Assembly: GCF_007860075.1 (NCBI RefSeq)
Contig: NZ_SJPP01000001.1
Span: 2,087,980 to 2,151,979 of the forward strand
From: Symmachiella macrocystis
GTDB taxonomy: Bacteria; Planctomycetota; Planctomycetia; Planctomycetales; Planctomycetaceae
DNA: 64,000 nucleotides
Direction of reading: 5' to 3'
Shown here: positions 1,743 through 14,967 of the stretch, piece after piece
How the letters are laid out: the number at the start of each line of letters is the position of its first letter
Numbering within the stretch: position 1 is the first letter of the stretch
Notes under the pieces: generated by a model
The model's input: the letters and a program-made list of their open reading frames with translations, nothing else
The model's database searches: none
Told to the model about the DNA's origin: nothing
Made by a program: the position numbers and the translations under genes

Positions 1743-3797
1743 GTGGCTGCCGTTATCGATAACGCAATTTCTCCACAAAGTGATGAATCGCAACTCATCG
1801 CCGCCGACTCTACAGTGGCTGTCGCCATCGATACGCGCCCCATTCTCGAAGCAGCGTTGGCAAAACAAAAACTCATTGAACTGCAATTAATTACGCTTGA
1901 GGAATGGGATGCAGCTGCCGAGGCAGCCGGCTCGCCGGAGGACTTGGTCCCCATTCTCGCGCAACTGCAATTGATGGATGCGAGTTGGAATTCCGGGTCC
2001 GATGAACGGTTTCCGGTGCTGACGTCGTTTCAAGCACAAAAAACAATGGCGGGTAAGCCCGAGGATTTGTGGCTAGACCACTATATCCTGCTGGAAAAGC
2101 TGGGCAGCGGCGGGATGGGAGATGTGTTCAAAGCCCGCAACACGCGTTTGCCGCGGTTAGAAGCGATCAAGACGATTCAGACCGCCACCGGAATTGGACA
2201 GTCAGATGCCAGCTTGAACTTGGAACGCTTTCAACGGGAAGCACAGCTGCTGGCGCAACTGCAACACGCACATCTCACGACTATTTTCCACGCGGGGCAC
2301 GACCGGGACGTTCAATTCATTGCGATCGAATACGTTCGTGGGCGAAACCTCAAACAGTATGTCGAGGAACTTTACAGCGACGGCGGTGAGATGTCGATCG
2401 GCATGGCGATTGATTCGGTGATCACCGTCGCCGAAGTCTTGGCGCACGCGCATGACCGCGGTGTGATCCATCGCGATATCAAACCGGCCAACATCATGGT
2501 CACACCGGACGGCGGCTTGAAGGTTCTCGATTTGGGAATCGCGCAACTGCGGGATCCGGAATCGACGAAGCGCCGAAGTTCGTCACAACTGACCCAGGGA
2601 GCGGTCTCCTTAGGCACACCGGAAGTAATGGCTCCCGAACAATGGGCCGATGCGCAGAGCGTGACGGCGGCTGCGGACATTTACAGCCTGGGTTGTACTT
2701 TGTTTTACATGCTGACCGGGCGGATGCCGTTTGTGAGCGAGACGCGCGAAGAGTTGCTGTGCGCGGTGGTGAGTGCGCCGCGGCCCAATGCGACTGACTT
2801 TCGCGAGGATGTCCCACCGGAACTATCGACGGTTATTCGTCGCATGTTGGCGCACTATCCACAGGACCGCTATCAATCGTGTGCCGAAGTGATTGCAGCG
2901 TTGTTGCCATTTGCCAATCGCATTACCGCCTCGCCGTTGGCTGATACGGGCGAACACAAACACAAGGTCCGAGTTTTTGCTTTAATCGCGGGGATTATGG
3001 GTGCATTGGCGGTGGTGGCTGCGGCAGGTTGGCAACATTCCTCCGCAACCCAGCCAGTCGCACGTGCTCCGCAGGGCGATGAGTTGTTGGGACGTCCATT
3101 TGAAAATCTCGCAACCCCCATGATTCCCGCATATGCTGCGGATGACGAAGCGAAAGTGCTCGCAGCTTACAACAACGACAGTTTTCTGCACACGGCTCAA
3201 TGGCTGTTGGAACTTCAATCGGCCCCACAATGGCGGCACGACAGCAATTTGGACGTTCAGATGCTGGTTGCCGGCAAACCATCCGAAACCGTGTTTGTCG
3301 ATGACGACGAAATTCCACAACCGGATGAATTTGCCACGATCCGCGTCCGCGCCCCCAATGGCGGCTATCTCACGATGCTTGTCTTTGGCAGCGACGGTAA
3401 CTTGTTTCAATTTCATTGGACCAAGCCGCTTGAATCGGGACGTTGGCTCACTGCCTTTGAACCGAGTGCCGCTTCAGAGGGTGACGATCTCGTGGTGTTG
3501 TATCTCACCGAAAGCGATCCATTGCAAGGTGCGCCGCAACGACCGAATTCTGCTGCTCCGCTTAATTTCGATAAACGGGACCATTTTGTACAAGGCCAAT
3601 TCGGCGCCATGTACACAAAAGGCGATCTGCACAACTTGGAAGCGGCGTTTGCGAAGCCGTCTATTTTTCAAGCTGTGATTCAAAAATTGAAGACGGGAGA
3701 ACCCTACCCGTTCACCAAGCCCCCAATACCGCCGGCAACGTGGTGGGCCAGGAAAGCCGTTCCGTTGCATGTTGTGAACCGGAGCACTGAGAATTGA
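1743..3797 (+). CDS. membrane-anchored Ser/Thr protein kinase (PknB-like)
   Basis: A Hanks-type kinase of 684 residues starting at GTG, with GAGGT about 8 bases upstream; the frame closes at a stop at 1668-1670. After an N-terminal extension of ~105 residues the domain shows the glycine loop G-S-G-G-M-G, the ATP-anchoring lysine in E-A-I-K (K143), the catalytic H-R-D-I-K-P-A-N (D245), and D-L-G (D263) in place of the common D-F-G. An A-P-E-Q-W motif follows. A single membrane helix lies near residues 410-430, so the kinase domain is cytoplasmic and the ~250-residue C-terminal part extracytoplasmic. That tail has the look of a beta-rich sensor, and I cannot name its family. The gene heads a cluster with a DUF4384-like protein, a surface protein and a CHAT protein. 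Confidence 0.92.
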   Translation: MAAVIDNAISPQSDESQLIAADSTVAVAIDTRPILEAALAKQKLIELQLITLEEWDAAAEAAGSPEDLVPILAQLQLMDASWNSGSDERFPVLTSFQAQKTMAGKPEDLWLDHYILLEKLGSGGMGDVFKARNTRLPRLEAIKTIQTATGIGQSDASLNLERFQREAQLLAQLQHAHLTTIFHAGHDRDVQFIAIEYVRGRNLKQYVEELYSDGGEMSIGMAIDSVITVAEVLAHAHDRGVIHRDIKPANIMVTPDGGLKVLDLGIAQLRDPESTKRRSSSQLTQGAVSLGTPEVMAPEQWADAQSVTAAADIYSLGCTLFYMLTGRMPFVSETREELLCAVVSAPRPNATDFREDVPPELSTVIRRMLAHYPQDRYQSCAEVIAALLPFANRITASPLADTGEHKHKVRVFALIAGIMGALAVVAAAGWQHSSATQPVARAPQGDELLGRPFENLATPMIPAYAADDEAKVLAAYNNDSFLHTAQWLLELQSAPQWRHDSNLDVQMLVAGKPSETVFVDDDEIPQPDEFATIRVRAPNGGYLTMLVFGSDGNLFQFHWTKPLESGRWLTAFEPSAASEGDDLVVLYLTESDPLQGAPQRPNSAAPLNFDKRDHFVQGQFGAMYTKGDLHNLEAAFAKPSIFQAVIQKLKTGEPYPFTKPPIPPATWWARKAVPLHVVNRSTEN

Positions 3798-3814
3798 ACA
3801 GGGGAGGTACCACC

Positions 3815-4594
3815 ATGATTCGCTACTTTGTCACGCTGTGCGTTGCCGTTTTGACTGCCGGATCGGCCCTCAGCGCATTCGCTGACGACAGTTCATCCAA
3901 CACATCCGCGCCGCGCCGCCAAGTCGACAGCGATGGCAAGGTTGTCGGCGAAGGTCTATCGACAACGGGCCTGAAACGGGTCACGTCCTTGCGGTACTCA
4001 ATCATTCTTCGCAACGAGGATGGTACCGAATCGGCCGTCGATGAGGCGAAACACACATTCAAAATAGGGCAGGAGTTTCGCTTAGTGGTCGAAGCCGATA
4101 CGGAATTGTTTCTGTATGTGTTTCATGAATCAAGCCACGGGTTGCGGAGTTTTTTAGTCCCCGACCGACATGATTCGGCCGGATACGTTCCGCGTTTGGA
4201 GCCGGGCAAACCACTGACGATTCCACAAGATGGTTATTTTGAAGTCACGCCCCCATTGGGCATTGAACGCCTGATGGTCTTCGCTACACCTGAAAAACGG
4301 CCGGAATTGACATCGACCGAAGCTTTCACCGAACCGGCACAATTGACGAAAAGCCAGCGCTCACAGCTGAAAAAACAGCAAGACCGCGTCTTCAACACGG
4401 CGATGAATGTGAATCCAGGAAAGGGCCGGCCCCAGCGTCGGGACCTGAATGGACCGCGGATTCGATTGCGAGGTATGTCCTGGCAACCCAAAACCAAACC
4501 AGGCCATACCGGCAAAACGGTGGTCGTCGGTTCCTACGATGACAAAGTGAAACCCGACCTATTTTTGACGATTCCCTTGTCGAGTCGCGAATGA
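3815..4594 (+). CDS. secreted DUF4384-like protein
   Basis: I place the start at the ATG at 3815 because GGGGAGG lies about 7 bases upstream and the product then begins with a signal peptide (hydrophobic core ~residues 5-20, ending S-A-F-A-D). The TTG at 3794 overlapping the kinase stop is also in frame but would include the ribosome binding site. The middle (~residues 50-165) resembles DUF4384: F-K-I-G-Q-E-F-R-L-V-V-E-A-D, then L-F-L-Y-V-F-H-E, L-V-P-D, and P-P-L-G-I-E-R-L-M-V-F-A-T. DUF4384 domains are often found next to kinases, caspase-like and CHAT proteins, which fits this context. The molecular role is unknown. The basic C-terminal third has no match I know. Confidence 0.75.
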   Translation: MIRYFVTLCVAVLTAGSALSAFADDSSSNTSAPRRQVDSDGKVVGEGLSTTGLKRVTSLRYSIILRNEDGTESAVDEAKHTFKIGQEFRLVVEADTELFLYVFHESSHGLRSFLVPDRHDSAGYVPRLEPGKPLTIPQDGYFEVTPPLGIERLMVFATPEKRPELTSTEAFTEPAQLTKSQRSQLKKQQDRVFNTAMNVNPGKGRPQRRDLNGPRIRLRGMSWQPKTKPGHTGKTVVVGSYDDKVKPDLFLTIPLSSRE

Positions 4595-4687
4595 CCCCTT
4601 CGCAATTCGTTTCAGAATCTGCTCGCTATCCTGAGTAATGGCTCCTCAAATTATTTCAAGGAAGAACTGAACTTCAAACGGTCTTCG

Positions 4688-7600
4688 GTGCCAATCGTGG
4701 GAACCACTATGCTGGGAAACATCGGCGAACATCTTATCCGCAAGCTGGAACGCATCATCGGGCTACCAGCCGATGCGCGAACTCCGCGCCTGCGGCAAAT
4801 GATGGGACTGGGCAGAGATCGGTGCGAACTCGCACTATTTCGGCGGTTAGATTTCGAATGCATGGAAGGACGGACGCTTCTGTCCGCCGACCTAGGATTT
4901 GCCTTCGGAGTTGGCGATAACCAGGACGATGTTGGTTATGAGTTGGACACCGATAGCGCAGGGAATGTTTATGTCACCGGTGAGTTTCGCGGGACTGTTG
5001 ATTTTGATCCGACGGCCGGTGTGACCGAGTTGGTGAGCAATGGAGGCAGCGACGCATTCATTGCGAAGTACGACTCTGATGGCAACTTTTTGTGGGCCAA
5101 AGGTTTTGGCGGGACGGGGGACGACACCGGACAGGGTATTTCGGTGGATGCAAGCGGCAAGATTTATGTCATTGGAAACTTCGACGGCACAGTCGGCGTC
5201 GATTTCGATCCCGGCGTTGATACGGACGTCAAAGCTGGAGGCAGTACCGCCGACGCGTTCGTACTTAAACTCGATGCTGCCGGCGAATATGTTTGGAGCA
5301 ATACCTTCATCGGCGCCGGCTTCATTTCCGGAAATGATCTCGCAGTCGACGCTGCCGGTAGTGTTTATGCCGCCGGATCATTTACCGGATCAGCGGACTT
5401 CGACCCGCTCGCTGGAGTCATCGCACCGATCGACTCCAACGGTTCTTTCGACGCGTATCTCGCAAAAATGGACAGCGACGGTGATATGGTCTGGGTCGAA
5501 ACATTCGGTGCCGGCCGCATTGACGGGATCTCAGGAATCGACTTGGATTCGTCAGGCAATATCGTGACGACCGGTTACTACATGGACACTGTCAACTTCG
5601 ATACGGGGTCCGGTATGTCCTTCGGAATCAGTGGTGCCGATAGCTTCGATACGTTCGTCTCGAAGTTTGACTCGGATGGTGCGTTTTTATGGGCCGCCAC
5701 CACTCGGGGGGCGGGTGAGAACGTTGCGCGAGACGTGGTGGTCGATGCGGATGACAATATTGTGTTTGTCGGCAGCTACACAGGCACGGTCGACTTTGAC
5801 CCAGGTGCGGGTGTCACCTCGCTAAACAGCGAAGGCGGCTACGATATATTTGTCACAAAACTAGATTCATCCGGAGCACTGCTTTGGACCGCCAGCATGG
5901 GGGGAGAAGACGAAGATTACGCCTACGGCGTGGATGTCGATTCTAATAACAACGTCTTTGTGGTTGGAGAATATCAAAACACAGCTGACTTTAACCCCTT
6001 GGGGCTCGATATTTTCAACCTGATTTCAACGGCTTCCCATTCAGCCTTTTCCGTAAAACTGAACTCAGCAGGTGAATTTCAATGGGCGGCCACCTCCTCC
6101 GGCACGGGCGACGCATTTGCCTATGGTATCGCCATCGACATCAACGGTCGGCTGTTGAGTACCGGTTCGGTCTTTGGCACTACGGACCTGGATCCCACCG
6201 CCTCAACGGAGACAGTCGTTTCCTCGGGCGGTTCGGATCTCTTTCTTCAAGTATTATTCGATAACACCCCACCGACGACGGCTGGAATCAGCGACGTCAA
6301 CACTACTGAAGACGGCGCCGATGCGGTGGTCGACCTCTTTACTGCCTTCAACGATAATGAAAGCGCGGATGCCGATCTAACGTACACCATCACGGGCAAT
6401 ACGAATGCCGCGCTCTTTTCGGGGATCCTCATTAATGGTGTGGCCGGTACATTGACGCTTCAGTTCGATGCAAACGCCTACGGCAGTTCGGTCATTACCG
6501 TACGGGCCACCGATAGCGATGGCGCTTATGTCGAAACGGCATTTACGGTAAACGTTGCAGCGGAAAATGATGATCCTACAACGTCTGGGGTCGGTAATGT
6601 CTCTGTTGCTGAAGACGCAGCGGATACGGTGATCAATCTGTTCACCGCATTCGCCGATGTTGAAGATGCCGACTCAGCTTTGATCTACTCGATCACCGGC
6701 AACACAAACGCCGGCCTGTTTTTCGGCATCAACATTGATGGCGGCGCGGGAACACTCACGCTGTCCTATGCGGCAAACGCCTTCGGAACGAGCTTGATCA
6801 CCGTACGGGCGACCGACACGGAAGGCCAGTTTATTGAGACCACTTTCACGGTGACAGTCGCGCCCGAGAATGACACACCGACCACAGTCGGAATTGCGAA
6901 CATTACCGTTCTTGAGGATTCTCGCCTCAACCTCATCGATTTGTTCGACGCGTTTAACGATGTGGAGGATGTGGATTCGGCGCTAGATTATACGGTGACC
7001 AACAATACCAACCCCCTGCTCTTCTCCGACATCTCCATTGACCCGGTGACCGGAAAATTGGCGGTGAATTTAGCCTCGAATCAATTCGGGGCGTCGGACA
7101 TCACCATTCGTGCACGAGATACCGGCGGGGAATGGGTGGATACGACATTCTCGATCACGGTGATATCACAAAATGACACTCCGCTTTCCGAAGATGACTC
7201 GTATCAGCTTTGGCAAAATAGTCGATTGAACACGAACGAAAGCGTGCTCGACAACGACTTGGATGTGGAGTCATCCGATCTGCAAGCGGTGTTGATCCGA
7301 GGGGCAGCCCATGGTCGGGTGATTTTGGCATCCGATGGTACGTTCTCGTATATTCCCGATGCGGGTTTTTATGGAATCGATCAATTCACCTACGCGGCCA
7401 GCGATGGCAGTGCCATTTCTGAGACATCGACAGTGACATTGTCAGTGGCCCGATTGCCGACAGCCGAGGGTGATGACTTTGCGGTCATTGCAAACACACC
7501 ATTGTTGGTCAGTGATGGTGGCGTCTTGAACAATGACAACCCCGCCGATGGAGACATTGGGCAGGTGGAACTTGTCTCCGGACCGGCACACGGAACGGTT

Positions 7601-8560
7601 AGATTGCATACCAGTGGGGCGTTTATCTATACACCCGATGCCGACTATGTCGGTCAAGACAGCTTTAGCTACAGAATCGTCGGGTCGGACTCAACCTCGG
7701 CAGCGGCCGTAGTCACGATTGATGTCCAACCGCCACCACTGGTATTGAATGACGTTGATACAGGTATTGAGAATCCATTTGACTCGACGAATGAACTCAT
7801 CAGTTCTTCGCAGGCAGCGATCGCCATTTCAGACGCGGTCGCGGCCCAAACGTCTTCGCAAGCTTTGCATCTGAATTATGTGACCGATGTCGTTGAATCG
7901 AACTATTTCATATTTCACGGATCGGACAACGACCTTGGTCTGTACTCCCTCGCCGGCGGTGGGGTGACTGACCCGCAAGCTGCGGGACAATTTACGGACG
8001 CGCATTCTGATGCGCCTCTGGGCGACGTAGATGCCGCTGGTGGTAACGGCGCGTTGGTGGCTGATAGTAATAACGCGATGCAACTTCGGACCGGAAGCTG
8101 GGCCGTGCCTGTCGACGATGACTTGTTGCTGAACTCCGCCTATTTTGAAGGGGATGAAAGCGCGTTTGTCTTTGACCGGATCATCGAACAAAGCTCGACA
8201 GCCCATAATAAGGACGCTGTGAATCCAGAGGATGTTCAGCCCGTCATCTTGGCCGAAAGCGATGCCAATTTGGTGCCATCTGTTCCAGCGATGGTCCCCT
8301 GGCAGCAACCTGTAGGAGATGAATCACAGCAAGCTGTCGACGAAATGTGGCACACTGCCCCAGTGCCTGCGGAAGACTCGGAGTCCTATTTTGGTTCCGG
8401 CGATGAACTCACCCCAACACATGTCGACCAATCGGTGCTGGCTGTCATCGCAACAACGATCGCCGCCGGGCATGTCTCCCATCGGAAAAGTACGCAGCAG
8501 CGCAAAGCAGCGCGTACACGCAGGTTTTCTCCCCCCCTCAACGAGAATCCCAAGTCATGA
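4688..8560 (+). CDS. giant surface protein with SBBP-type and cadherin-like repeats and LEPR-XLL-like N-terminus
   Basis: A 1290-residue protein. The start is GTG 4688 or ATG 4709. Near residues 55-68 it has M-E-G-R-T-L-L-S-A-D, which fits the LEPR-XLL signature (L-E-x-R-x-L-L-S) at the start of very large planctomycete exported proteins. Residues ~70-520 hold about seven SBBP-type propeller repeats, each with a V-D-F-D-P-x-A-G-like stretch and G-N-x-x-W. Residues ~525-835 are three tandem ~100-residue cadherin/Ig-like repeats (E-N-D-x-P-T-T). Two more cadherin-like domains with D-N-D-x-D follow to ~1020. The tail is unassigned until a hydrophobic segment (V-L-A-V-I-A-T-T-I-A-A-G) and an Arg/Lys-rich end. 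That end looks like a sorting or anchor signal. The stop overlaps the CHAT gene start. Confidence 0.88.
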   Translation: MPIVGTTMLGNIGEHLIRKLERIIGLPADARTPRLRQMMGLGRDRCELALFRRLDFECMEGRTLLSADLGFAFGVGDNQDDVGYELDTDSAGNVYVTGEFRGTVDFDPTAGVTELVSNGGSDAFIAKYDSDGNFLWAKGFGGTGDDTGQGISVDASGKIYVIGNFDGTVGVDFDPGVDTDVKAGGSTADAFVLKLDAAGEYVWSNTFIGAGFISGNDLAVDAAGSVYAAGSFTGSADFDPLAGVIAPIDSNGSFDAYLAKMDSDGDMVWVETFGAGRIDGISGIDLDSSGNIVTTGYYMDTVNFDTGSGMSFGISGADSFDTFVSKFDSDGAFLWAATTRGAGENVARDVVVDADDNIVFVGSYTGTVDFDPGAGVTSLNSEGGYDIFVTKLDSSGALLWTASMGGEDEDYAYGVDVDSNNNVFVVGEYQNTADFNPLGLDIFNLISTASHSAFSVKLNSAGEFQWAATSSGTGDAFAYGIAIDINGRLLSTGSVFGTTDLDPTASTETVVSSGGSDLFLQVLFDNTPPTTAGISDVNTTEDGADAVVDLFTAFNDNESADADLTYTITGNTNAALFSGILINGVAGTLTLQFDANAYGSSVITVRATDSDGAYVETAFTVNVAAENDDPTTSGVGNVSVAEDAADTVINLFTAFADVEDADSALIYSITGNTNAGLFFGINIDGGAGTLTLSYAANAFGTSLITVRATDTEGQFIETTFTVTVAPENDTPTTVGIANITVLEDSRLNLIDLFDAFNDVEDVDSALDYTVTNNTNPLLFSDISIDPVTGKLAVNLASNQFGASDITIRARDTGGEWVDTTFSITVISQNDTPLSEDDSYQLWQNSRLNTNESVLDNDLDVESSDLQAVLIRGAAHGRVILASDGTFSYIPDAGFYGIDQFTYAASDGSAISETSTVTLSVARLPTAEGDDFAVIANTPLLVSDGGVLNNDNPADGDIGQVELVSGPAHGTVRLHTSGAFIYTPDADYVGQDSFSYRIVGSDSTSAAAVVTIDVQPPPLVLNDVDTGIENPFDSTNELISSSQAAIAISDAVAAQTSSQALHLNYVTDVVESNYFIFHGSDNDLGLYSLAGGGVTDPQAAGQFTDAHSDAPLGDVDAAGGNGALVADSNNAMQLRTGSWAVPVDDDLLLNSAYFEGDESAFVFDRIIEQSSTAHNKDAVNPEDVQPVILAESDANLVPSVPAMVPWQQPVGDESQQAVDEMWHTAPVPAEDSESYFGSGDELTPTHVDQSVLAVIATTIAAGHVSHRKSTQQRKAARTRRFSPPLNENPKS
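4900..6250 (+). repeat. tandem SBBP-type coding repeats
   Basis: About seven diverged copies of a ~60-codon unit lie inside the surface-protein gene. They are recognised by the recurring D-F-D-P or D-F-N-P core followed by a G-x-S-D-A/D-x-F-x-x-K-x-D-S-x-G element. They predict a bladed propeller. Confidence 0.7.
6265..7180 (+). repeat. three tandem ~300-bp cadherin-like coding repeats
   Basis: Three successive ~100-residue units share the order E-D-x-A-D-x-x-x-x-L-F-x-A-F, Y-x-I-T-x-N-T-N, G-T-L-T-L, S-x-I-T-V-R-A-T-D, T-F-T-V. The first two are closest to each other and the third more diverged, as expected from internal duplication. Confidence 0.75.
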
Positions 8561-11500
8561 ATGGCGCTAAAATGACTCATCTCCCGCGCGCAGCAATCCT
8601 TTGCTGTGGACTGCTCGTCGCGATCTTGGCAGATGGCCAGTCGGTCACTGCGTCGCCGTCTCATCGTGACATCATGCAACAGGCGCATGTGGCCTACAAT
8701 GCAGGTCGTTTCCTGCAGGCCGAGCAATTGTTTCGGCAAGTCTACGATGAAACATCCGAACAAGACCCGCAGGACATTGCCACTCGCCGGATCTGTACGG
8801 AGCAATTGTTTGAGATCTATTATCGGTTGGGACATTACGATAAAGCCATCCAACTGGGGGTCGGATTGCGGACGGCGTTGGAAACAGCGGGAGAATCGAG
8901 CCGCCTGCGATCCACCGACATACGACTGGGTAAATGCTACTTCACATTGGCACATTACCGGCAGGCAGAACGTTTCTATCAGCAAGCGCTAGCACTCCAG
9001 GTCGATCGTCCGTTGGACCCGGTCCTGAAAATGGAGGGACTGGTGACGTTGGCTATGATCGCCGATCGTCTTGAAGAGCAAGACATCACAGACCGGCGCT
9101 GGCGGACGGCTGCAAATTTTGCAGAGACGATACTGCGCGACCATCGCGAGGCGTTGCCGCTGAGAGACCAAATCGTCCTGGGCCACAATTTGGCTCGGGC
9201 ACTTCGCAAAACGGGACAGGCCGAACAATCTGTCGCCCAGTTGCAATCACTCCTGAGATTATCCGCCACTCATGATTACGTACGAGGCCGACAAATACTA
9301 TTGGCCGAACTCGCAAATCAATACGAGGCGATGGGTGATCTCGGTCGTGCGATTGGTGCCCTGAAGAGCGCCTTGGCACTCAATACCAACGACAGTCTCG
9401 CGACTGCGATGTCTCGCGGCGATCTGTACAGCCAGTACTCGATTCTATTGAATCGCTATGGCCAATCCGACGCCGCGCGACAAGCCGCCGAACAAGCGGA
9501 ACAACTTTACAAAAACATCATTCAACATGCGGCCGGGAAAGGCCACGACTCGTTGGAGTCGATGAATGCATTTTGGAAGCTCAAAGACCTGCTGCGCTAC
9601 ACACAACAATACCGACAAGCGGTCGAATTGGTTTCGGATCAGCCCTGGAATTGGTCCAAGGACAGCCTACCGGCCTATCACCTCACCAGTGAGCGCGGCG
9701 CATTGCACGCAGCTGTTGGCTCCTATCCCGAGGCCCGCCGGTTTTTGACACAAGCTTTAAAGGTGCGACGGCAGCAGGATCCGCTGGACCTCAGCCAGTT
9801 GCCGCGCACTTTGAATAACTTAGCGCTCGTCGAACAGGCAACAGGCAATCTGGCCGAAGCCAACGCGCTGTGCGAAGAGTGTCTCCAACTCTACCAGCAA
9901 TACGCACTGCCGGAAGATCGCGATCTCGCTGAAACCTACAACCTGCTTGCGACCAACGCAGCCTTAGCCGCGAATTATTCCACAGCCGTGAGACTGTACC
10001 GCCGCGGCATCGAAATCTGCCGCAAGTGCGGCACAAAGGCGGACGGCCATCGCGGTAACTTATTGCTCAACCTGGCAAAAACCTACAAGTCCCAAGGTCA
10101 ATACGCCGAAGCGATTAAGCAATGTGAAGAAGCACTCACTATCGCCAAGTCGTCGGGGATGTCGTCCGCCAATTCGGTCAGCGAACCCGCGGTCTATTGC
10201 GCTTTGGCAACGATGTATACCGCTGAAGAGGATTTTGAAAAGACTCGAGAATTCGCCAATAAGACGCTGCAACTCTGCGAACAAATGAACGTCCCCGACG
10301 GCCCTGTGATGAGCTCGGCTCAACACTGCTTGGCGATTGTCGCACTGGTCGATAAGGACTATGCACAGGCCGATGCACTCTGGAAACAGGTTCTCCAGCA
10401 ACAACAAAAATTGGGACAACATGCCCTCACCGCGCGGAGTTATAACTATCTGGGTGCGACGGCGCAATTGCAGGGCGATTTGAAACAAGCAGAACAATCG
10501 TATCGGGCAGCATTGCATGTACTCGACGGCGATTCCGACACCTATCCCGTCATGCGATTCGTCAGTTTGTGGAAGCTGGCGCAGCTTCGGCACCTGGACG
10601 GTGATGAACTGGAATCGCGAGAATTGCTAGACGAAGCGATCGACATCGCCGAAGAGACTCGTGTCGATACGTATGGAGCAGAACAACATCGCGCTGACTT
10701 CTTCTCGCAATTTGCCCCCGCTTTTGACGCCGTATTTCACCTAAGCCTCCGCGACGGAGATTTCGCACAAGCCTTGGCCTATGCCGAACGAGGTCGCAGC
10801 CGCACGTTTCTTGACCAACTCAAATCAGCTGGTGTCGATCCCCGCCAGGGACTATACGGCACAGCGGATGAACCACTGTTGCAAAAAGAACAGAACCTCA
10901 AGCGCCGCATCAATCACGTGCGCTCCCAGGCACAACAGATGGCCGAGTCGGATGCCACCAGTGAAGAGACCCAACTACTCGTGGCCGAGTTGCAACACGC
11001 CCAAGATGAATATGCCAAAATCTGGCATCAGATTCTCGATGCCAGTCCTCAATACCGCAATCTGCTGGTCAAAAACCTAAACCAATGGAGCCAACTGCAA
11101 CGCGAAGTGGTCCGTCCGGGAACGATGCTGTTGTACTACTATTTGGGCCGCAGTCGCGGTTATTTGGTGGTTATCGGCGACCAAATGAAACAACCGGAAG
11201 TCTTTATGTTGGACATCCCGGTCGGATATCACGTGAATGCAAACGTGGTCACAGCACGGCAACAGCGCATGGCGTTGTCGACTCGCGGACTGAAACGACA
11301 GCGTGTTAATATCCCCACCCCCGCCGGGATCCAGGTTACTAAAAAGCCTTTGCCATTAACCCGCGCCCGCGCAGACGTGTTAGTCGACAACTACCTGCAA
11401 TCGTTGATGGTCGACGGGGTCGAGTCTGTGCGCGGTGTCCGAAGAAAACGCATCAAAAAAGAGGAAGATGCATTCGGACCAAGTTCCACAGCCATGGCCG

Positions 11501-12507
11501 ATATTCTATTGCCGGCAGCGGTACGGGATCACATTCGTCAATCGAAGCCCGACCGGCTGATCGTTGTTCCGGACGGTGCGCTGCATAAACTTCCCTTGGA
11601 AGCATTGGTGCTTAGCGATAAACCGCAACCGCGGTATGTCTTGGATGAATTTCCGCCGATTTCATATGCTCCTTCCGCGGGTGCCCTGGCCGCGCTCGTA
11701 GCGCAGCCGCGCAACGATACGCGCGGTGCTGCGACCTTGCTTACGATCGGCGATCCGGCCTATCCGCTTTCAAATCGTTCTCAGAAATTAGTAGCTGCAG
11801 CCGATCCGATTGGCAGTGACTATCTCGGCATGCGGGGCCAAGTCGACCGGTTACCGAACACCGACGCGGAAAGTCGTCGCGTCGCTAGCCTGTTTGACCA
11901 GAAACGCGTGACTGTGCTGCGGGGTGAGCAAGCGACTGAGACCAACGTGCTGGCAGCATTGCCGGGGCAACGTTATTTGCACTTTGCCGCTCATGCGTTC
12001 GTTGACCAACAGCATGGCAACCTGTTGGGAGGCATTCTGTTAACGCCGCCCCACAATGCGTCGGATGCAAAACAGTCTGACGGTGTGCTGGCGCTGAATG
12101 AAATCTATACCTTGAAACTCAACCAATGCGAGTTAGCTGTACTCAGTGCCTGTGAAACCAATGTCGGTCCGGATGGAACGATGGAGGCTGGCTTTAGCCT
12201 GGCACGCGCCTTTTTCAAAGCGGGTGCGCGGCGCGTGGTTGCCAGTCACTGGACGGTCGAAGATGAGTCCACCTCGGAACTGGTGGGAGAATTCTTTGAA
12301 GAGATGGCCAATCAGTCCAAATCGGATCAGCCGGTCAACTATGCCAAAGCATTACAAACAGCCCGCCGCCGCGTCCGTAATAATTCCCGGTGGTCTCACC
12401 CCTTCTTCTGGGCACCGTTCGTATTGATTGGTCCTGGCGTGGAAGATCCGTCGGTCCCTCAACGGCCGCTCTCACACGACGGATTGGGCGACTTATCGCG
12501 AAAATAA
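8557..12507 (+). CDS. secreted TPR-CHAT caspase-like protein
   Basis: A 1316-residue protein whose ATG overlaps the TGA of the surface-protein gene by four bases, implying translational coupling. A signal peptide covers about residues 9-32. Residues ~35-720 are tetratricopeptide repeats, with several Y-x-x-A-x-x-x-x-x-x-A-L units. A spacer follows, and the C-terminal ~350 residues are a CHAT domain. The predicted catalytic dyad is present: H1146 in H-F-A-A-H-A and C1199 in L-S-A-C-E-T, with the S-H-W-T-V block after it. CHAT domains are clan-CD peptidases related to caspases and separase, and activity often depends on the partner bound by the TPRs. The coupled surface protein is a candidate partner or substrate by position only. 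Confidence 0.92.
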   Translation: MNGAKMTHLPRAAILCCGLLVAILADGQSVTASPSHRDIMQQAHVAYNAGRFLQAEQLFRQVYDETSEQDPQDIATRRICTEQLFEIYYRLGHYDKAIQLGVGLRTALETAGESSRLRSTDIRLGKCYFTLAHYRQAERFYQQALALQVDRPLDPVLKMEGLVTLAMIADRLEEQDITDRRWRTAANFAETILRDHREALPLRDQIVLGHNLARALRKTGQAEQSVAQLQSLLRLSATHDYVRGRQILLAELANQYEAMGDLGRAIGALKSALALNTNDSLATAMSRGDLYSQYSILLNRYGQSDAARQAAEQAEQLYKNIIQHAAGKGHDSLESMNAFWKLKDLLRYTQQYRQAVELVSDQPWNWSKDSLPAYHLTSERGALHAAVGSYPEARRFLTQALKVRRQQDPLDLSQLPRTLNNLALVEQATGNLAEANALCEECLQLYQQYALPEDRDLAETYNLLATNAALAANYSTAVRLYRRGIEICRKCGTKADGHRGNLLLNLAKTYKSQGQYAEAIKQCEEALTIAKSSGMSSANSVSEPAVYCALATMYTAEEDFEKTREFANKTLQLCEQMNVPDGPVMSSAQHCLAIVALVDKDYAQADALWKQVLQQQQKLGQHALTARSYNYLGATAQLQGDLKQAEQSYRAALHVLDGDSDTYPVMRFVSLWKLAQLRHLDGDELESRELLDEAIDIAEETRVDTYGAEQHRADFFSQFAPAFDAVFHLSLRDGDFAQALAYAERGRSRTFLDQLKSAGVDPRQGLYGTADEPLLQKEQNLKRRINHVRSQAQQMAESDATSEETQLLVAELQHAQDEYAKIWHQILDASPQYRNLLVKNLNQWSQLQREVVRPGTMLLYYYLGRSRGYLVVIGDQMKQPEVFMLDIPVGYHVNANVVTARQQRMALSTRGLKRQRVNIPTPAGIQVTKKPLPLTRARADVLVDNYLQSLMVDGVESVRGVRRKRIKKEEDAFGPSSTAMADILLPAAVRDHIRQSKPDRLIVVPDGALHKLPLEALVLSDKPQPRYVLDEFPPISYAPSAGALAALVAQPRNDTRGAATLLTIGDPAYPLSNRSQKLVAAADPIGSDYLGMRGQVDRLPNTDAESRRVASLFDQKRVTVLRGEQATETNVLAALPGQRYLHFAAHAFVDQQHGNLLGGILLTPPHNASDAKQSDGVLALNEIYTLKLNQCELAVLSACETNVGPDGTMEAGFSLARAFFKAGARRVVASHWTVEDESTSELVGEFFEEMANQSKSDQPVNYAKALQTARRRVRNNSRWSHPFFWAPFVLIGPGVEDPSVPQRPLSHDGLGDLSRK

Positions 12508-12762: not shown

Positions 12763-13860
12763 ATGACAACTCAAATACTACCCGCAACTGATCAAGAACT
12801 TTGGTTCTTGGAAGGGCTCATCGATCAGCGCGATCGGGTGCAACATATTCCAATCAACTCGGTCCCGTTTCGCATCGGTCGCTCCGCCGAGCTGGGGCTC
12901 TGCTTGCCCTCTCCCGCGGTTTCCAAAGCACATGCCGAAATTGTATCGGTAGGAGATAAACTCTTTCTCCGAGATTTGGATAGCACCAATGGAACATTCG
13001 TCAACGGCCATCGCGTCGCCGGGACGACTCCGATTGGCGAAGGAGACTTGATCCAATTCGCCACAATCGATTTCCGAGTGAAACGTGAAGCCGCAAAGAG
13101 CTTTAACAATACCATTTCAGATTCCTCGTGCGACCTGAGTGGGATGCTGGCACGGTTTCACAACCTGATGTCTTCCCGCGCGGTCGTTCCGGTATTTCAG
13201 CCAATCATCGCATTCGCCGACAAGAGCGTCATCGGATATGAAATCCTGTCGCGGAGTCGGATCGATGGTCTGGAAACTCCACGTGACATGTTTCTGGTGG
13301 CCGAACGACTGCACTTGGCCGCGGAATTGAGCACGATGCTACGCTGGGAAGGGGTGCGAACCGGCGATCAAATCATTCCCGCGACCAACTTGTTTATTAA
13401 CACACACCCGTGTGAAAAAATGACGCTAGGACTGCTCGACAATTTGCGTGAACTCCGCGAACGATTTCCCCAGCGGCCATTAACCATTGAGATTCACGAA
13501 GGTGCTGTCACAGATTTGGAGGAGATGCAAACGTTCCGGGAGGCGATCACCGACCTAAATATTGGGTTGGCCTACGACGACTTCGGCGCCGGGCAGACGC
13601 GATTGCTCGACCTAGTTGCGGTTCCCCCCGATTACCTCAAGTTCGACATCAAACTCATTCGCGACATCCATCTCCACCCGCAACAGCAACAAATGGTCGA
13701 ATCGCTGGTCACGATGGTTCGTGATTTCGGAATCGCCGCTCTGGCTGAGGGGATTGAGCGCCCCGAAGAAGCTGAAATCTGTCAGCAAATCGGGTTTGAT
13801 TTCGCGCAAGGGTATTTCTTCGGCCGCCCGATGCTGGTCGACTCCGTCCCGGTTGCGTGA
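12763..13860 (+). CDS. FHA-EAL fusion, probable cyclic-di-GMP phosphodiesterase
   Basis: This 365-residue protein has no signal peptide or membrane segment, so it is cytoplasmic. Residues ~25-105 are an FHA domain with F-R-I-G-R-S, S-K-A-H-A-E and D-S-T-N-G-T-F-V-N-G, the phosphothreonine-binding pattern. Residues ~130-360 are an EAL domain. The metal and catalytic positions look intact: Y-E-I-L-S-R for the EAL motif, the Asn in N-T-H-P, E-I-H-E, Y-D-D-F-G-A-G, the Lys in F-D-I-K, A-E-G-I-E and the Gln in A-Q-G-Y. The EAL family hydrolyses cyclic di-GMP to pGpG. An FHA input suggests control by Thr phosphorylation, and the kinase encoded upstream is one possible partner (inference). Confidence 0.9.
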   Translation: MTTQILPATDQELWFLEGLIDQRDRVQHIPINSVPFRIGRSAELGLCLPSPAVSKAHAEIVSVGDKLFLRDLDSTNGTFVNGHRVAGTTPIGEGDLIQFATIDFRVKREAAKSFNNTISDSSCDLSGMLARFHNLMSSRAVVPVFQPIIAFADKSVIGYEILSRSRIDGLETPRDMFLVAERLHLAAELSTMLRWEGVRTGDQIIPATNLFINTHPCEKMTLGLLDNLRELRERFPQRPLTIEIHEGAVTDLEEMQTFREAITDLNIGLAYDDFGAGQTRLLDLVAVPPDYLKFDIKLIRDIHLHPQQQQMVESLVTMVRDFGIAALAEGIERPEEAEICQQIGFDFAQGYFFGRPMLVDSVPVA

Positions 13861-13971: not shown

Positions 13972-14967
13972 ATGGACATTGACGTTGAGATTCCCGATCT
14001 GCCGGCCGCGTTGCGGGATTTGATAGCCCAGATTCCACCGGGCCGCGTGACGACCTATGGAGCATTGGCTGCGGCGCTAGGTAGCGATAGCGCAACCCGC
14101 TGGGTCGGCAGTTATGTCCTGGATCCGTTAGTCGCAGCCGCATTGCCAGTACACCGCATTGTCCTCGCCGCTGGCGAACTGGGTTTGTACTATACGGGGG
14201 ACGCGGCCGACAAATGCCTTCGATTGCAATCCGAAGGAATCGAAGTCGAGAAAGATCGCATTGAGTTACCGCGGTGGTTTTTCGATGGCTTTCAATCATC
14301 ACAGCCGCTGCGGACATTGAGCGCACTGCAAGAGGACTACACCAAGCGACTGCAACTGACGCGTCCTGCGGCGCGACCGCAAACCGTTGGCGGCGTGGAT
14401 CTCTCTTATATCACTGACGGGAGAGCCGTCGCCGGATACGCGTTGATCGATGTGGCCACACGCAAATTGTTATGGTCGACCACCCTGACTGCGGAGGTCG
14501 CGTTTCCGTACATCCCTACGTTTTTGTCCTTCCGGGAATTGCCCTTGTTGTTGCGGTTGTTGGATCAAGTCCGCCGGGAGGATCGCATGCCGGATCTGGT
14601 CTTTGTCGATGGCAACGGTGTCATGCACGACCGCCGCATGGGCATCGCCTGTATGTTGGGTATTGCCGCTGACGTGGCAACGGTGGGGATCAGCAAGAAA
14701 TTATTGTGTGGCCAAGTTGAGACCGATGACATGGCGCATCGCGAAGCGCGTCCTGTGGTGGATGGCGAAGAAGTTTTGGGGATGGCGCTCAAATCGCGGA
14801 ACAGCTCGAAGTTGATTTATGTTTCCCCGGGGCATCGCATCGATTTTGCCACCGCCTTAGAAGTCACGCAAAGCCTGCTGGCTGGCCATCGTCTTCCAGA
14901 ACCGACTCATTGGGCCGATAAACTAAGCCGCGATGAAGTCCGCCGCATTTCCGCCGCTCAGTCGTAG
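13972..14967 (+). CDS. alkyltransferase-like domain fused to endonuclease V
   Basis: A 331-residue fusion. Residues 1-~95 match the DNA-binding domain of O6-alkylguanine-DNA alkyltransferases, with G-R-V-T-T-Y-G-A-L-A and R-W-V-G. The acceptor motif P-C-H-R reads P-V-H-R, so the acceptor cysteine is Val60. That makes it an alkyltransferase-like (ATL) module that could bind but not repair alkylguanine. Residues ~110-325 match endonuclease V, with G-G-V-D-L-S-Y (D143), the Y-I-P-x-x-L-S-F-R-E block (E189) and V-D-G-N-G (D213), which correspond to the metal ligands of the family. Endonuclease V cuts near deoxyinosine in DNA, or inosine in RNA. The frame is continuous with no sign of a sequencing frameshift. 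The start ATG lies 111 bases after the FHA-EAL stop. Confidence 0.9.
   Translation: MDIDVEIPDLPAALRDLIAQIPPGRVTTYGALAAALGSDSATRWVGSYVLDPLVAAALPVHRIVLAAGELGLYYTGDAADKCLRLQSEGIEVEKDRIELPRWFFDGFQSSQPLRTLSALQEDYTKRLQLTRPAARPQTVGGVDLSYITDGRAVAGYALIDVATRKLLWSTTLTAEVAFPYIPTFLSFRELPLLLRLLDQVRREDRMPDLVFVDGNGVMHDRRMGIACMLGIAADVATVGISKKLLCGQVETDDMAHREARPVVDGEEVLGMALKSRNSSKLIYVSPGHRIDFATALEVTQSLLAGHRLPEPTHWADKLSRDEVRRISAAQS

Follow-up and report, generated by a model that had tools for sequence, protein, structure and literature searches.

The window analyzed here, a 64,000-nt stretch of Symmachiella macrocystis DNA (GCF_007860075.1, NZ_SJPP01000001.1, positions 2,087,980 to 2,151,979 of the forward strand), holds four co-oriented genes that encode a membrane Ser/Thr kinase, an exported DUF4384 protein (predicted), a large surface protein, and an exported TPR-CHAT protein (predicted) (Table 1). 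The original prediction described these genes, an ATGA start/stop overlap that joins the last two, and an intact His/Cys dyad in the CHAT protein. The open reading frames (ORFs), the overlap, and the dyad (H1146 and C1199) were all confirmed, and the same 4-base overlap is present in two relatives of the cluster (L035 and L036; throughout, G with a number denotes a genome and L with a number a locus).

The kinase matches the Pkinase profile at 146.6 bits and has a single strong transmembrane (TM)-like segment (residues 411 to 427). Its extracytoplasmic C-terminal part carries no recognizable DUF4384, unlike its relatives in other genera, where DUF4384 is the kinase ectodomain: four of ten such kinases exceed the PF14326 cut-off, five match below it (E ≤ 0.01), and that of L061 has no match. 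The kinase of G113 matches PF14326 weakly (16.4 bits), and the genome-wide DUF4384 search gave none for G113. In the window DUF4384 is instead a separate protein, which exceeds the PF14326 cut-off (34.3 versus 27 bits) and is the sole DUF4384 match of its genome at E ≤ 0.1. Its likely start, ATG 3815 with GGGGAGG 7 bases upstream, yields 259 residues and a signal-like N terminus. Among 150 genomes, four were found to have a standalone DUF4384 protein of this kind, and three of the four belong to the genus. A fold search with the DUF4384 ectodomain returned nothing at E ≤ 0.001, and a PDB sequence search with DUF4384 gave no useful result.

The TPR-CHAT protein matches PF12770 at 197.8 bits (cut-off, 24) and is the one CHAT match of its genome at E ≤ 1e-5. 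A signal-like segment (residues 9 to 25) is followed by TPRs, with no further 17-residue segment over threshold. In an 18-sequence CHAT set (A2) the catalytic His is kept in 18 of 18 and the Cys in 17 of 18, and from its sequence the window protein is a predicted cysteine peptidase with an intact dyad. The exception is the CHAT protein of L060 (G146), in which Gly replaces Cys (TGT to GGT relative to L058) and a sequencing error is possible. Foldseek matches of the CHAT model include Csx29 (the best, E 7e-12), DdvA (E 5e-10), separase, and gingipain R; DdvA (PDB 8rot and 8rw5), from Myxococcus, is also the only PDB profile match at E ≤ 0.001 (E 5e-11).

Because CHAT domains occur in Craspase and SAVED-CHAT, and PADLOC profiles match the kinase and the TPRs, we considered a conflict or suicide system in which the kinase would release a CHAT effector protease upon infection. 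We regard it as very unlikely. The PADLOC matches are confined to kinase and TPR profiles in a comparison made with component profiles, and none concerns the DUF4384 or surface protein; the CHAT and DUF4384 proteins have export-like N termini; and no defense gene was recognized by eye among the neighbors, where no systematic search was made.

Table 1. Features of the four-gene cluster (window coordinates)
Feature	Position	Strand	Basis or remark
Membrane Ser/Thr kinase	1743..3797	+	Pkinase match, TM-like segment
Exported DUF4384 protein (predicted)	3815..4594	+	PF14326; GGGGAGG before ATG 3815; frame open from TTG 3794
R-G-M of DUF4384 protein, R226 (counted from 3794)	4469..4477	+	41 residues from the end; place of the relatives' kinase motif
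Large surface protein	4709..8560	+	Open from GTG 4688; SBBP propeller, cadherin-like/tandem-95 repeats
LEPR-XLL-like N-terminal stretch MEGRTLLS	4862..4885	+	Curated model without match
C-terminal tail of surface protein, SVLAVIATTIAAG then basic stretch	8432..8557	+	Tail test; L036 tail similar
ATGA overlap, surface-protein and CHAT genes	8557..8560	+	Same overlap in L035, L036
Exported TPR-CHAT protein (predicted), 1316 residues	8557..12507	+	CHAT profile, TPRs, signal-like N terminus
CHAT loop 1, R910-G-L	11284..11292	+	Inside low-confidence (pLDDT < 50) segment, model residues 220-250
CHAT loop 2, R959-G-V	11431..11439	+	Inside low-confidence (pLDDT < 50) segment, model residues 278-299
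Catalytic His1146 of CHAT (predicted)	11992..11994	+	Kept in 12/12 and 18/18 sequences
Catalytic Cys1199 of CHAT (predicted)	12151..12153	+	Kept in 12/12 and 17/18; L060 = Gly

Conservation of the neighborhood

The shared function originally proposed for the four genes is supported by a neighborhood that proved to be conserved when planctomycete genomes were searched for the same gene order. A search of 150 genomes of the order at E ≤ 1e-20 detected CHAT relatives in 19, and a profile search at E ≤ 1e-90 did so in 20 of 170. The same-genus relatives found, G062 and G051 (L035 and L036), have the four genes in the same order, along with the neighboring NHL, EAL-FHA, and endonuclease V genes, and identity to L036 ranges from 52% (surface protein) to 67% (DUF4384 protein). 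Other genera have the order surface protein, kinase, CHAT, and L061 has kinase, surface protein, CHAT. In the order-wide profile search 16 loci scored above 750 bits, two of which (G144:C966 and G146:C9) were left out because they start inside CHAT; the kinase is in the cluster at 13 of the remaining 14, among them G144:C1658, with only a C-terminal piece of the kinase at the contig end, and G113, where the kinase is downstream of CHAT. The exception, G092, has no kinase beside CHAT within 1.26 kb of upstream sequence. G081 (625 bits) likewise has none beside CHAT, and its kinase-DUF4384 gene adjoins a LEPR-XLL giant on another contig.

Among 59 lower-scoring CHAT loci, a directly adjacent kinase was found at four (L071 in Krumholzibacteriota, L072 in Eisenbacteria, L089, and L130); some of the misses are uninformative, since upstream sequence of 1 kb or more is available for only 45 of the 59 loci. 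The kinase-DUF4384/CHAT pair extends to metagenome-assembled genomes of Krumholzibacteriota and Eisenbacteria, and five other TPR-CHAT regions within the order (L049 to L053) have no directly adjacent kinase. DUF4384 matches (37 in the genome search, with loci read for 30) occur in 18 of 20 CHAT genomes versus 28 of 170 overall (P 2.5e-15, uncorrected for descent). Of the 11 loci with a readable flank, 10 have a giant or LEPR-XLL surface protein next to the pair, and so does L061. The exception is G113, where the contig does not extend to the upstream side, and the LEPR-XLL stretch cannot be read in G065 and G128 because the N terminus of the surface protein is cut off. ECF sigma genes adjoin the module in L043, L045, L061, L071, and L180/L073, and a second kinase-DUF4384 gene in L228; all six such sigma neighbors tested pass PF07638. 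No ECF sigma gene was seen beside the window's own genes.

A single-protein scan of genome contigs found no relatives, and a search of the phylum with A1 recovered 1 of 392 genomes, the organism's own, which is weak evidence of absence because only two candidates per genome were scored. A literature search by titles and abstract beginnings found no paper treating this gene set. Mere chance neighbors, four genes each with its own task, would fit the scan of the cluster for promoters and terminators, which rose only to chance level. The conserved neighborhood and the covariation described below speak against this explanation, and we consider it improbable in the extreme.

Arginine loops common to the CHAT and DUF4384 proteins

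An Arg-led peptide, RG[IVL]xGxxxTxKG with variants, is found in two disordered loops of the CHAT protein, which flank one helix ahead of the CHAT core, and in one disordered loop near the end of the DUF4384 ectodomain. When the CHAT half of the window protein and the L058 ectodomain were modeled, all three loops had a predicted local distance difference test score (pLDDT) below 50, as did four other segments of the former and one, the N terminus, of the latter; with 18 and 14 sequences, the disorder so indicated is no more than suggestive. Counted from the end, the kinase-ectodomain Arg occupies position 38 to 44 in 13 planctomycete kinases, 45 in L071, and 53 in L072, and in the standalone DUF4384 proteins of three genus members the Arg of RGM stands at position 41. 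Among other DUF4384 ORFs, R[GAS][ILVM] stands 35 to 60 residues from the end in 1 of 18 (G038).

The likeness is easily seen when the partners of one genome are set side by side. L037 has RGIGGTVETDKG and RGIGGTVETTKG in CHAT and RGIGGIVETDKA in the kinase; G092 has RGLGEAVPVPKG and RSLGQAVPVPKG, G081 TREVVGTEQTERGGQLEE and TREPTGMVSSQKGGQIKE, and G113 RGQVRRLK and RGTVKRLK, CHAT being given first. Own pairs exceeded shuffled pairs over 11 clusters with a permutation p of 1e-5 for 9-mers (the floor of the test) and 4e-5 for 7- and 13-mers, as they did with gapped alignment in a set of 13 clusters (p 1e-5); in an earlier, wider scan the signal was clear in some clusters only. When six genomes were scanned with a degenerate pattern derived from these same proteins, four contained matches; all 11 lie in the CHAT/DUF4384 pair, and the reversed control had none. 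A motif profile built from 13 instances in these same proteins, which it is expected to match, gave 32 matches above 16 bits, and the point of note is that these lie in kinase or CHAT ORFs; shuffled sequence gave six above 11, the highest at 17.7. We rejected the possibility that the motif stems from a DNA repeat that was mobile or copied recently, given that wobble positions differ and 11 of 11 pattern matches fall in the pair. In L130 (4847-11005) a short RGP(R/K)xP..PRP-like stretch is present both in the kinase ectodomain and in a C-terminal insert of CHAT; its score is not above noise, and it is possibly a further variant of the motif at another place in CHAT.

The motif Arg is among the 6 invariant columns of 12 kinase ectodomains, several of them from close relatives, and the CHAT R959 column is conserved at 90% or more among 18 sequences. 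In G146 loss is correlated: the CHAT protein without the catalytic Cys (L060:1-3417) also lacks the loop 1 motif and has an eroded loop 2, and the genome, which is 92% complete and whose L060 contig begins inside CHAT, has no DUF4384 match.

These loops could also be docking sites, with the exported TPR-CHAT protein a non-proteolytic sensor that binds the DUF4384 loops in a ligand-dependent manner, like the CHAT part of DdvA. To this reading belong both the strong structural match to DdvA and its place as the only PDB profile match, and equally the ECF sigma genes beside the module. The near-complete retention of the His and Cys argues against it, as does the erosion of the loops in the very protein that lacks the Cys, and we hold it to be unlikely. 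In a DdvA-type protein a cytoplasmic anti-sigma part is presumably linked through a TM segment to the TPR-CHAT part. The window CHAT protein resembles DdvA in its TPR-CHAT fold and in the sigma connection. It differs in architecture, however, with only a signal-like segment ahead of its TPRs: DdvA is a transmembrane anti-sigma factor, according to its entry title, whereas the window protein is a separate exported protein that accompanies a kinase.

The surface protein and its tail

The surface protein was originally predicted to have 1290 residues, which is its length if the frame is read from GTG 4688; the sequences of relatives, however, favor ATG 4709 and 1283 residues. Its repeats are of the SBBP propeller and cadherin-like/tandem-95 kinds, and unlike the DUF4384 and CHAT proteins it has no signal-like N terminus. 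With LEPR-XLL proteins (NF012209) it shares a LEPR-XLL-like N-terminal stretch and the form of a giant repeat protein, yet it has no match to that model at E ≤ 0.1, and among six cluster surface proteins from relatives only that of L061 passes it (17.6 versus 17). None of the NCBIfam C-terminal sorting signals matched the window protein at E ≤ 0.1.

The protein ends in a short hydrophobic segment, SVLAVIATTIAAG, and then a basic stretch with a net charge of +7, a tail that appears closer to a sorting signal than to a classical TM segment. We defined a tail test as a 13-mer of mean hydropathy at least 1.3 within the last 70 residues, followed by a net charge of at least +4 over at least 8 residues; the thresholds were fixed after the cluster tails had been viewed, and the tails of L043, L045, and L073 are near-identical. 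Nine of 10 cluster surface proteins pass (L037 fails on charge, at +3), as against 23 of 568 control ORFs, or 16 of 561 once 7 extra copies of cluster surface proteins are removed. The tail sequences differ between genera. A search for LEPR-XLL-like proteins in the organism's own genome gave 11 matches, only 2 of them over the curated cut-off; 10 places were read, and 9 have a LEPR-XLL-like stretch. None of these 9 other proteins passes the test, which led us to reject the idea that the tail is typical of LEPR-XLL proteins in general; by these thresholds, this kind of tail is a further difference between the window protein and the other 9 LEPR-XLL-like proteins of the genome. The nearest to passing is L145/L181 (hydropathy 2.09, net charge +1), with repeats 52% identical to those of the window protein over 308 residues. 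This LEPR-XLL paralogue (L181:9862-15372, minus strand, G000 contig C2) has a somewhat similar tail and no kinase or CHAT recognized nearby, and it is possibly a client in trans.

The original prediction suggested that the CHAT protein processes or sorts the surface protein. Processing finds no support, because the only element that ties CHAT to a partner, the Arg loop, was found in CHAT itself and in the DUF4384 ectodomain, whereas it was not detected in the surface proteins encoded at these loci, which share no motif with CHAT. Sorting fares better in that a sorting-like tail is common to the surface proteins: CHAT would be a dedicated sortase-like enzyme of caspase fold that cleaves off or transfers the tail of its co-encoded surface protein, as PorU presumably does on clients of the type IX secretion system. 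The ATGA coupling, seen in the window and in both L035 and L036, fits this proposal, as do the enrichment of the tail in the clusters, the surface protein at the flank of the pair, and the gingipain-like fold matches. Nevertheless, no motif is shared with CHAT, the tails vary between genera, and two downstream neighbors in Krumholzibacteriota look sorted by the type IX system itself (TIGR04183, 30.4 and 22.1 versus 23 bits). On balance we judge sorting by CHAT to be distinctly unlikely.

A candidate envelope signaling module

The reading we favor, with a little less than even confidence, is that the CHAT and DUF4384 proteins are direct partners, most likely protease and substrate, in a conserved envelope signaling module. 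The cluster would be one version of that module, in which the exported TPR-CHAT peptidase is paired with an exported DUF4384 unit, separate here and a kinase ectodomain in other genera. CHAT would cut itself twice, after the Arg of its flexible loops, and so become active; it would then cut the DUF4384 unit once or twice after Arg, about 40 residues from the end, which would alter the signal that the membrane kinase passes to the cytoplasm. The module would serve or sense the surface protein encoded beside it, whose tail is short, hydrophobic, and basic. Direct partnership is better supported than cleavage itself, and we infer the cut at Arg, the direction of signaling, and the role of the surface protein.

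We favor protease and substrate on account of the fold matches, the precedents of Csx29 and orthocaspases, and the concerted change of the sites around a fixed Arg, a pattern that a multi-site protease would be expected to impose. Csx29, of the type III-E CRISPR system Craspase, has the same TPR-CHAT fold and is reported to cut its partner Csx30 within a small flexible loop and thereby to relieve the inhibitor of an ECF-like sigma factor (PMC10028731). Csx29 is activated by RNA within a CRISPR complex, whereas the window protein is export-like and scores far under the Csx29 model NF041237 (23 versus 300 bits). DUF4384 is described as accompanying caspase-fold proteases (PMC8283722), and orthocaspases as cleaving after positively charged residues (PMC6426788). 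The window resembles the DUF4384-caspase (C14) and orthocaspase proteins in placing DUF4384 alongside a caspase-fold protease, as L182 does too; in the former the two share one chain, whereas here DUF4384 is on the kinase or separate and has an Arg loop that matches CHAT. A second type of DUF4384/CHAT neighborhood was seen in which other planctomycete TPR-CHAT genes stand with C14 caspases (L182:1728-8271 and L051 to L053), on the basis of profile matches in L182, where one C14 is joined to DUF4384, and by eye in L051 to L053.

Several observations weigh against this reading. A docking site could give the identical pattern. The covariation is a summed effect, in which own pairs are row maxima in 6 of 11 clusters (7-mers), 6 of 11 (9-mers), 3 of 11 (13-mers), and 4 of 13 (gapped); the best-scoring own 9-mer coincides or overlaps with the motif in 9 of 11 clusters, the window cluster and L061 being the two where it lies elsewhere, and the gapped scores of L089 and L130 are no better than noise. 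The compared stretches were picked with the place of the motif known, both sets include G092 and G081, where CHAT and kinase sit on different contigs, and the G081 partner was picked among several DUF4384 genes. The invariance of the Arg is lost once the kinases of the window and L056, both without the Arg and without recognizable DUF4384, are added. In the window itself the loops are reduced to RGL and RGV (CHAT) and RGM (DUF4384), with the remainder of the motif lost, and an unforced profile alignment sets RGM onto the kinase motif weakly (E 0.0045, probability 7.7). For the window, the claim depends on position and on relatives.

A more ambitious version of the favored reading, which we consider unlikely as a whole, is an outside-in relay. 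The exported caspase-fold enzyme would recognize an Arg peptide in its own loops and in the kinase ectodomain loop, copies of which evolve in concert, and its cuts would turn the state of the giant surface protein into kinase and ECF sigma output. That state would perhaps be read through a free tail, by analogy with the reading of outer membrane protein tails by DegS.

Two further genes follow the cluster. The gene that immediately follows CHAT in the window, L035, and L036 encodes an EAL-FHA protein (12763-13860, plus strand); G081 has a homologue on the same contig as its CHAT gene (L054:548-1765). The FHA domain of this protein could read the phosphothreonine of the kinase and pass the signal to cyclic di-GMP. 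Next to the EAL-FHA gene, in G062 and G051 too, is an MGMT-type DNA-binding domain (PF01035, 55 bits) fused to endonuclease V (PF04493, 199 bits; 13972-14967, plus strand), which carries PVHR at what we take to be the place of PCHR in alkyltransferases.

The best-studied TPR-CHAT protease is cytoplasmic and works with CRISPR, in contrast to the predicted exported protein described here. If the favored reading is true, an exported TPR-CHAT protease with a predicted substrate loop would provide a testable role for DUF4384, a domain of unknown function; covariation of peptides between two unrelated proteins would be shown to reveal substrate sites; and the giant surface proteins of planctomycetes would be tied to a signaling path.

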